Positions 25,188 through 63,197 of a stretch of DNA of 64,000 nucleotides are shown one piece after another; the first letter of the stretch is position 1, and each line of letters starts with the position of its first letter. Both the position numbers and the translations under genes were made by a program. The notes beneath the pieces are model-generated. The model did no database searches, was not told the DNA's origin, and was given only the letters and a program-made list of their open reading frames with translations. Source of the DNA: Methanothermococcus okinawensis IH1 (GTDB lineage: Archaea > AGJL01 > Methanococci > Methanococcales > Methanococcaceae). Where the stretch lies: positions 1,031,495-1,095,494 of the forward strand of contig NC_015636.1 in NCBI RefSeq assembly GCF_000179575.2, in the 5' to 3' direction.

Positions 25188-25973
25188 ATGAAATATGGTA
25201 TAACAGAAACCGTAAAAACCATAAAATCAAAAATAAAAGTTAAAGATATTATTTACGATATAGTAGAAAAGAAGACAAACGCTATAAAATATTTCTTAGA
25301 AGGGCAGGAATTCAATCAAACAATTGTTTTTGGAGCTTATTTATGCGGAAATTATATGGCACATGCACTGTTAAAAGATTCTGATGAGGTAATTCTTGTA
25401 GATGTTTATCCGCATTTAAAAGACATGATAGTTAGTGAAAAAATAACCTTTATGGATTCAAACAAATTCAATTTAGCATTGAGAAATGGGAAACTAAATC
25501 CTGATTTAATTGTTGATATAACTGGAATTGGTGGTATAAGTCCTGAAATTTTATCAAAATTTAATCCCGAGGTTCTTATCGTAGAAAATCCAAAATGCAC
25601 ATACGATAAGGATATTTTTGAAATAGATAATTCTATGGATAGATTAAACACTGGCAAAAAAAGAGGTTTGTTGAATACTTTTAGGTCATCAAAGGTTTCA
25701 AAAACTTCTGGAACTATGACCTTAACTATCGACACTGTGCTTGATTCCTGTGCTGAAATAAAGGAGCTCGATGGTGTGCTTTATGCATTACCTAATTTAA
25801 AGTATTATGAGGGCATATTATTCCATGAAAAAGATGCTAAAAAGTTTATAGGTGAGGTAAATGCACCTGCAATAACTGTAAGTTGTTTGGATGAATACAT
25901 TATCCCAGAAATAGATAGGATATTATCAAAAAATATGGAGAAAATCAATTCATTTGTAGTAAAAGCAAAATAA
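25188..25973 (+). CDS. hcgC: FeGP cofactor pyridinol C3-methyltransferase HcgC
   Basis: 261 residues of the DUF1188 family. HcgC methylates C3 of the pyridinol ring using SAM during FeGP cofactor synthesis. The SAM-binding Rossmann part shows TIVFGAYLCGNYMAHALL, the acidic strand VILVDVYPH and LIVDITGIGGIS. The tail has EVNAPAITVSCLDEYI. The start follows a textbook GGTGATATT. Together with hcgB it shows that the organism makes the Hmd cofactor, which is used when nickel is limiting. Confidence 0.9.
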   Translation: MKYGITETVKTIKSKIKVKDIIYDIVEKKTNAIKYFLEGQEFNQTIVFGAYLCGNYMAHALLKDSDEVILVDVYPHLKDMIVSEKITFMDSNKFNLALRNGKLNPDLIVDITGIGGISPEILSKFNPEVLIVENPKCTYDKDIFEIDNSMDRLNTGKKRGLLNTFRSSKVSKTSGTMTLTIDTVLDSCAEIKELDGVLYALPNLKYYEGILFHEKDAKKFIGEVNAPAITVSCLDEYIIPEIDRILSKNMEKINSFVVKAK

Positions 25974-26031
25974 TAATATAATAATAAAAAATAAAATAAA
26001 AATAATAAAATATTTTTTAATATATGATTAT

Positions 26032-26067
26032 TTATTCCTTTTCAAATATATATTCAAATGCAACCTT
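26032..26067 (-). pseudogene. diverged duplicate of the last 12 codons of argF
   Basis: Read on the minus strand, these 36 bases encode KVAFEYIFEKE and a stop. The true end of argF is [11 protein letters not shown] and a stop. The two copies match at 32 of 36 bases by my alignment and lie about 250 bp apart in the same direction, with the hairpin array between them. It is a remnant, not a gene. It may come from recombination of a diverged argF allele or from insertion of the array with partial duplication of the target. Confidence 0.7.
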
Positions 26068-26079
26068 TAAAAATCTCAA

Positions 26080-26270
26080 AATTCACTTCGTGAATTCGAA
26101 GCGAATCCTTTGGATTCGCTGACTTACAAAACCTTGAAAAGGTTTTGTCAAGTTATACGATGCCGTAGGCAGTAAAAAAATCCGTAGGATTTTTTCTGAT
26201 TTCTCGCTATCGCTCGAAAGGTTGCTATCGAAAGTCCAATACTCACTATCGTTCGTATTAGAACCTAAAT
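26080..26270. repeat. array of small hairpins with three-base loops
   Basis: At least five inverted repeats follow each other closely: 26080-26096 (7-bp stem, loop TTC), 26100-26120 (9-bp stem, loop TTT), 26126-26148 (10-bp stem, loop GAA), 26161-26171 (4-bp stem, loop GTA) and 26175-26195 (9-bp stem, loop GTA). After them come looser units built on CTATCG (26207-26256). The block is much richer in G and C than normal spacers here. It lies between the argF stop and its diverged duplicate. Related pieces occur in and beside trpG. The structure resembles clustered palindromic elements such as REP or BIME; no transposase is nearby. Confidence 0.75.
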
Positions 26271-26280
26271 TAAACCATTT

Positions 26281-27198
26281 TTATTCCTTTTCAAATATAT
26301 ATTTAAACACAGCCTTTTGAGCATGTAATCGGTTTTCAGCTTCATCATAAACAACGGATTGTTTTCCATCGATTACATCATCGGTTATTTCCATCCCTCT
26401 ATTTGCAGGAAGACAGTGCATTACAATGGCATTATTTTTTGCATAACTTAACAGTTTTTCGTTTATTTGGTAAGGGGGGAATATCTTATTTACTTCATCC
26501 AAATCTTTATTTTTATCACTCATACTTATCCAAACATCTGTATATAGCACATCTGCATCTTCTGCTCCTTCTTTTGGGTCATTTGTTAGTGTTATGCTAC
26601 CTTCTCCATATTTATCCACTATTTCCAGTGCCTTTTTTACAAACATTGCATTTGGCTCATAACCTTTTGGTGTAGCAGCATATACATCCATTCCAAGTAG
26701 AGCTCCCCCAATCAATAATGAATTACATACATTATTTCCATCACCAAAGTATGATAATTTAAGACCTTTTAATTTGTTTTTATGCTCTTTTATTGTTAAT
26801 ATATCTGCCAATATCTGACAAGGATGTGCTAAATTACTTAATGCATTAATTACTGGAACATTACCGTATTTTGCCAGTTCTTCAAGTGTTTTATGGTTTT
26901 TAACTCTTGCAACAATTCCATCAACATACCTACTCATTACCCTTGCAGTATCTTTTATGCTCTCTTTTTTTCCCAAGTGGGTTTCCCCTGTATTTAGCAT
27001 TAAAGAATGTCCCCCTAACTCATTTACTGCAATATCAAAGCTTATTCTTGTTCTTGTTGAGGGGCTTTCAAATATCAATGCTATATTTTTGTCCTTCAAT
27101 ATATCCATGGTTTTCCTGTTCTGCTTAAAATAAATAGCATCTTTAATAATATTTTCAACATCGTTTCTTTCTAAATCTCCCAAAGTCAATAAATGCAT
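26281..27198 (-). CDS. argF: ornithine carbamoyltransferase
   Basis: 305 residues from the ATG at 27198, which follows GGTGATAAT; the longer frame to 27234 has no ribosome binding site. It makes citrulline from ornithine and carbamoyl phosphate in arginine synthesis. The carbamoyl phosphate motif STRTR, HPCQ, the SMSD loop and HCLPANRG (the ornithine-binding cysteine) are all present. The 3' end is flanked by the hairpin array and the duplicated tail. It is a single gene. Confidence 0.96.
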
Positions 27199-27392
27199 AT
27201 TATCACCAATATAACATAAATAAACATAAATCACATGAAATAAATTTTATAAAATTATTATATAAAGTCAAGAATATAAAATTAAAATATTTGAGATTAA
27301 ATTTTTAATTATATTATTATATTTAAAACTTGTTAATTATATAACCACATATCATTAATTAGGTATATTATTTTTAATTTTCAAAAATATAT

Positions 27393-63126: not shown

Positions 63127-63144
63127 ATTCTCACCTTTTTAGGT

Positions 63145-63170
63145 TCCAACCGAAGCGAAGCGAAGTTGGA
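63145..63170. repeat. hairpin between trpE and trpG
   Basis: TCCAAC and GTTGGA (63145-63150 and 63165-63170) enclose a loop made of repeats of CGAAG. The loop shares CGAAGCGAA with the array behind argF. It lies in the 71-bp trpE-trpG spacer and could act in the transcript as an operon punctuation or be another mini-element. Confidence 0.5.
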
Positions 63171-63197
63171 TTTTGGAAATCATCATATCTTATAAAT

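Follow-up and report, generated by a model that had tools for sequence, protein, structure and literature searches.

What is the cluster of small hairpins behind argF in Methanothermococcus okinawensis, and how did it come to lie there? In the window (the whole 64,000-nt stretch of DNA analysed here, which sits at 1,031,495–1,095,494 on the 1,662,525-base contig of a two-contig genome of 1,677,455 bases), argF occupies 26281–27234 on the minus strand, an identity backed by Pfam, and hcgC and hcgB lie on the far side of the block from it. The original prediction described five inverted repeats with three-base loops at 26080–26270, and all five are present, listed here on the plus strand: AATTCAC-TTC-GTGAATT with a 7-bp stem (26080–26096), AGCGAATCC-TTT-GGATTCGCT (26100–26120), ACAAAACCTT-GAA-AAGGTTTTGT (26126–26148), the short TGCC-GTA-GGCA (26161–26171) and AAAAAATCC-GTA-GGATTTTTT with a 9-bp stem (26175–26195). 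The looser CTATCG units said to follow them are also there, as a loose stem TTTC...GAAA (26200–26219, plus strand) that is kept in copies at L002, L003 and L004 and in the related genome G010. The cluster is real and far beyond chance: within 116 bp there are four perfect stems, each of 7 bp or more and with a 3-nt loop, and none of 100 dinucleotide shuffles of the window as a whole matches this (the most in any of them is three). The folding energy of the block is -69.9 kcal/mol, whereas its shuffles average -42.1 (z = -7.5). The block had also been called rich in G and C against an AT-rich background; the direction is right (38.0% against 29.6% for the window) and the enrichment is only moderate. 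Gene order also differs here: across window 25188–26317, hcgC lies beyond argF in this genome and a different gene does so in G002, G003 and G010, and a rearrangement near the element is possible.

The hairpins are the inner part of something larger. The argF 3′ end is duplicated on the far side of the block, and for this reason the whole element is taken to span 26031–26307: the last 28 nt of argF recur as a truncated copy at 26031–26058 (minus strand), 27/28 identical to the intact stretch, which lies inside the argF 3′ end and includes the stop codon (26280–26307, minus strand). Between the two, all on the plus strand, come the left end of an outer element, GCAACCTTT (26060–26068), which forms the 5′ arm of a first outer hairpin and pairs at 9/9 positions with the 3′ arm AAAGGTTGC (26217–26225); the hairpin array enclosed in the loop of that hairpin (26069–26216); a second outer hairpin, CCAATAC...GTATTAG (26236–26261); and the right end, AGAACCTA (26260–26267), with a motif, GGAACCTA, common to other copies. 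From copy to copy, a change in one arm of the first hairpin is matched in the other; the two outer ends, GCAACCTTT and GGAACCTA, do not form an inverted pair. The earlier reading had missed the argF-end duplicate and the enclosing hairpin, as well as the copies at tRNA ends and inside genes described below. In its smallest form the outer element is about 62 bp of two hairpins (GCAACCTTTAAAAAAGGTTGC, a short joint, CCAAAACTCACTTCGTTCGTTTTGG and AACCTA); its length ranges from about 62 to 230 bp, and no gene lies within it. In the long copies, that of argF included, an array fills the loop of the first outer hairpin, and a site at a radical-SAM-like gene holds both forms: a bare 64-bp element in the closest relative (G003), where the array is missing, and a 210-bp form in G010. 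Inside the array is a further unit of about 57 bp and two hairpins, the TTT and GAA hairpins listed above.

Two covariance models, R1 for this double-hairpin unit and R2 for the right end, were built and searched for. The suggestion that the hairpins are units of one kind is supported, and further copies occur in the genome and its relatives. Behind argF, R1 matches 26096–26154 (plus strand; 86.3 bits, E 2e-19) and R2 matches 1057712–1057763, which is window 26218–26269 (70.8 bits). R1 finds 10 strong copies in M. okinawensis (G000), dozens in G012, which belongs to another genus of the same family and is the most copy-rich relative, and a few in G010, G014, G028 and G003. R2 matches number 18 in G000, 14 in G003, 4 in G010, 2 in G012 and 1 in G016; those with the lowest scores are uncertain. 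Outer elements sit at the 3′ ends of tRNA genes and at the 5′ or 3′ ends of protein genes, and this gene-end layer marks, in one orientation, some dozen tRNA isoacceptors along with several housekeeping genes. Near-full copies of the argF block adjoin tRNA-Arg (L002), tRNA-Leu-taa (L003) and tRNA-Leu-gag (L004), with partial copies elsewhere; the argF array recurs at the first two and in G010, and the array at the third is the same less the R1 unit. The second outer hairpin has TCACTTCGTTC as its loop, but in that third copy the loop is turned round to GAACGAAGTGA, as though the tips of hairpins were able to flip. Among protein genes (named from their translations, argF excepted), ksgA, an MTH1187-like gene, TFS, the radical-SAM-like gene, trpG and one G016 gene are hit at the start, and argF, atpD-like and hisF-like genes at the end. 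About 370 bp from a tRNA-Glu element (L196) is part of a tyrosine integrase, a C-terminal fragment at G003:C53 52838–53080. A separate family of hairpin clusters (GTAATGAAATCCGTAGGATTTCATCTGATAG with flanking stems) has four copies (L027, L039, L044, L048) in G024, a genome of the order's other family, and L028 in G032.

Some of these insertions appear to be old. The ksgA and TFS sites are common to G000 and G003, and the radical-SAM-like and trpG sites to G000, G003 and G010 (in the window, the trpG site is a weak remnant between trpE and trpG at 63138–63187, minus strand; R2 match G000:C2 1094632–1094681, E 0.006), and insertions shared among several species in this way are inherited. Behind argF a right-end scar remains in G003, and more distant members of the genus carry no trace of the element there, so that it is absent from this position in most of the genus; the argF insertion thus probably predates the split from G003. 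Neither motif has an exact match in viral contigs. Of 28 stretches that carry the unit motif, 27 belong to bacteria of scattered kinds outside the order, as a rule with a single one in each genome, a pattern that chance could produce. By the one copy of the motif that they have in common, G003 appears to be the MAG Methanothermococcus sp. S013_52_esom.

In most copies of the outer layer, a truncated stretch of the adjoining gene's end precedes the left end of the element; in every copy the whole gene lies beyond the right end. With left ends set by hand in 28 copies, the match between flanks exceeds the 99th percentile of mismatched flank pairs in 23 of them, and a clear duplicate is missing in the other 5. 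The duplicates are about 20–100 nt long and in places look fresh (36/36 identical at tRNA-Met, 49/50 at the hisF-like end and 40/40 at the radical-SAM-like gene). In all 16 tRNA-associated copies, by ARAGORN tRNA calls, the tRNA lies beyond the right end and points its 3′ end at the element, and in nearly all of them the breakpoint falls in the T-loop. The displaced tRNA copy mostly reads GATTCAAAC, the gene itself GATTTGAAC or GATTCGAAC; because the same substitution recurs in different tRNAs, it suggests that the GATTCAAAC change was brought by the element. The filler at the left end is often CAAAC. The right end faces the gene in every case, while the polarity relative to transcription is opposite at gene starts and at gene ends. 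At three loci the duplicate and element together form head-to-tail repeats: three units of 132 bp at tRNA-Ser (L171, G000:C2 about 693.7–694.0 kb), two of 147 bp at tRNA-Ile (L183, in G010) and two of 112 bp at ksgA (L005). One frame of the element reads KQPLKKVA in several copies at gene starts; that the upstream duplicates encode a selected leader peptide was also considered and set aside as unconvincing, at 4 of about 6 independent cases.

Duplicated gene ends of this kind are what a miniature integrative element would leave: the duplicates would be attL and attR, formed when a tyrosine integrase inserts a small circle at the end of a gene by recombination, the way in which larger archaeal elements enter tRNA genes at their 3′ ends. 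The constant T-loop breakpoint at tRNA 3′ ends, the 20–100 nt duplicates and the tandem arrays all speak for it, tyrosine recombinases are present in the genome (four matches), and a site-specific recombinase would be in keeping with the CAAAC filler and with a break in the tRNA T-loop. More than 20 unrelated target sequences, however, are ill-suited to one integrase, none is encoded within the element, the distribution of PF00589 does not track element copies, and the genomes of genus g3 have many integrases but no clear copies. This explanation is accordingly considered unlikely, though not negligible.

A functional RNA or terminator belonging to argF, retained because its hairpins stabilise the message or terminate it, fares less well and is improbable. 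The very stable fold agrees with such a role, as do stems preserved by paired changes and sites retained between species. In 55 distinct copies of the inner unit, 98.4% of cells are paired and 207 cells have changed on both sides, a level of pairing that no shuffle reached (fitting the 55 copies to the model biases their alignment towards pairing; a first hand-made set of ten agrees). But only about a dozen cells among the unit stems are G-U, so that the covariation is almost purely Watson-Crick, and this scarcity of G-U steps would fit repair or copying at the level of DNA. An argF RNA would also not account for copies at gene starts or inside genes, and the element is missing behind argF in most of the genus. 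Because polarity to transcription flips while the right end stays toward the gene, an RNA role for the right-end rule was dropped. Nor is the block part of a known RNA family: a covariance search against Rfam 15 gave sub-threshold chance matches only.

The inner unit, for its part, also enters coding sequence. It lies in frame, on one strand, in one frame and at exactly 19 codons in three unrelated genes, each with relatives that have the gene without it. The leucyl-tRNA synthetase of G003 bears it (LDKNSSSFCKSANSKNSLR), and that of M. okinawensis and eleven other relatives does not, a clean 19-residue gain in G003. A methyltransferase bears it in G028 (LDENSSSFRKSANPSDSLR) and G014, which represent two other genera, and ends LLGFKDNSPAKMIVAKKL without it in G003 and G012. 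A transposase-like gene found at seven places in M. okinawensis (L008–L014) bears it (LNKNPRGFCKSANLSDSLR) and lacks it in G014 and G023; in both of these genes, too, the unit amounts to a gain of 19 residues. The seven-copy protein has no Pfam match, and the gene multiplies its in-frame unit along with itself. Other in-frame copies lie in a helicase intein (G010, G012) and a Rad50-like protein (G012); at the intein (L047 in G010, L255 in G012) the same in-frame multi-hairpin stretch is found in both genomes, as if intein and units had travelled together. N-terminal copies in PolB and NadC of G012 are in frame by position only; the PDB comparison begins at the unit. In that genome, 35 of 43 strong copies examined fall outside ORFs of 100 codons. 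The net gain from the unit is 57–58 nt, and any flanking repeat is 1–2 nt at most.

A classical MITE, mobilised in trans by a DDE transposase, would likewise be short, multi-copy, geneless and palindromic at its ends. DDE transposases give short duplications of fixed size. The 20–100 nt duplications are neither, the two outer ends form no inverted repeat, and the inner unit adds its 57–58 nt with almost no repeat, all of which makes such an origin very improbable. Less probable still is a SINE-like retro-element copied from RNA by target-primed reverse transcription: long variable duplications and a fixed orientation would be expected of it, yet the near absence of G-U pairs argues against an RNA intermediate, and reverse transcriptase (RVT_1, PF00078) was absent from M. 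okinawensis, with one match, in G012, among the 36 genomes of the order. The REP/BIME array with a RAYT transposase to which the original prediction likened these arrayed palindromes is just as remote and was rejected, as the RAYT-type Y1 transposase (PF01797) is absent from both M. okinawensis and G012 (it was found in 5 of the 36 genomes, and positive controls matched), the palindromes are not confined to the spaces between genes but occur in frame within them, and gene ends are duplicated at length.

The reading that fits is another of those offered at the outset, a non-autonomous mobile element. That the argF block is a palindromic element of two layers, with an outer layer at gene ends, an array nested within it and a unit that also occurs in frame, can be stated with high confidence. 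The fuller statement, that this two-layer element is mobile and non-autonomous, with its mode of copying conditional, is probably correct. Evidence for mobility comes from the comparison of sites (copies, duplicates, orientation, filled and empty pairs), many of which may be old, being common to several species. What links the outer element with the inner unit is their nesting, and the two could be independent elements.

How such DNA might move is a more tentative matter; copying through DNA hairpins with template switching is a plausible route, to which somewhat less than an even chance is given. The DNA would carry no enzyme of its own and would spread by being copied: a nascent strand ending inside a gene end would switch onto a donor copy, aided by short homology (for example GATTYRAAC in tRNA T-arms), the hairpins would be copied from left end to right end, and the strand would rejoin in AT-rich sequence flanking the gene. 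With its end copied twice the gene would remain intact, which would account for both location and duplication, and the fixed orientation would come from the direction of copying. Tandem arrays of duplicate and element could then grow by unequal recombination, palindromy would be maintained at the DNA level, and the copies that last would be those that do no harm, lying past the end of a gene or adding 19 codons to it.

Several known systems share parts of this behaviour. Rickettsia palindromic elements (RPE) are short palindromic DNA that occupies intergenic sites and also unrelated protein genes, in which it stands in frame and gives a recurrent peptide (PMC10969869; PMC3733652). The inner unit is likewise intergenic and in frame in unrelated genes with a recurrent peptide, and by analogy it works like an RPE. 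It differs in being archaeal, in its length (about 57 bp against about 150 bp for RPE), in adding exactly 19 codons in the three genes tested and in being nested in a second, gene-end element. The likeness is one of behaviour; the exact unit motif had no Rickettsia match in genome contigs. Archaeal MITEs (Sulfolobus, haloarchaea) are also short non-autonomous archaeal repeats (PMC10969869); the argF-type element differs in lacking terminal inverted repeats and a short fixed duplication. REP/BIME arrays with RAYT share with it the short palindrome arrays behind genes, and not the in-gene copies, the gene-end duplications or the want of a Y1 enzyme. Integrative elements at tRNA 3′ ends (attL/attR) also duplicate the gene end, leave the gene whole and break in the T-arm, and the argF-type copies show such gene-end direct repeats (23 of 28 above the control); they are, however, only about 62–230 bp, without an integrase, and reach many unrelated targets including gene starts. 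Mitochondrial double-hairpin elements and GC clusters, and the repetitive hairpin elements of sponges, are mobile geneless hairpin pairs too, in organelle genomes. To our knowledge, long gene-end duplications in one orientation have not been described for them.

In the open literature (subscription papers lying mostly outside its scope) searches found neither an element of this kind described from Methanococcales nor palindromes in frame within archaeal genes, and the novelty of the archaeal element is therefore provisional. It is a rather doubtful, though conceivable, proposition that a mode of mobility not yet described is at work, in which hairpin DNA that brings no enzyme of its own enters gene ends in one orientation, duplicates 20–100 nt so that the gene survives, and carries a nested 57-nt palindromic unit that passes through coding sequence in frame. 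Protein-coding palindromes have been called a unique but recurrent feature of Rickettsia (Ogata et al., 2002, going by the title as cited in PMC3733652). The Methanococcales provide an independent, archaeal case with clean pairs of filled and empty genes, such as a leucyl-tRNA synthetase with and without 19 codons; such pairs, in genomes without Y1, make both the movement of the DNA and its effect on proteins testable, and the one-orientation layer at the ends of tRNA and housekeeping genes points to an undescribed route of insertion.
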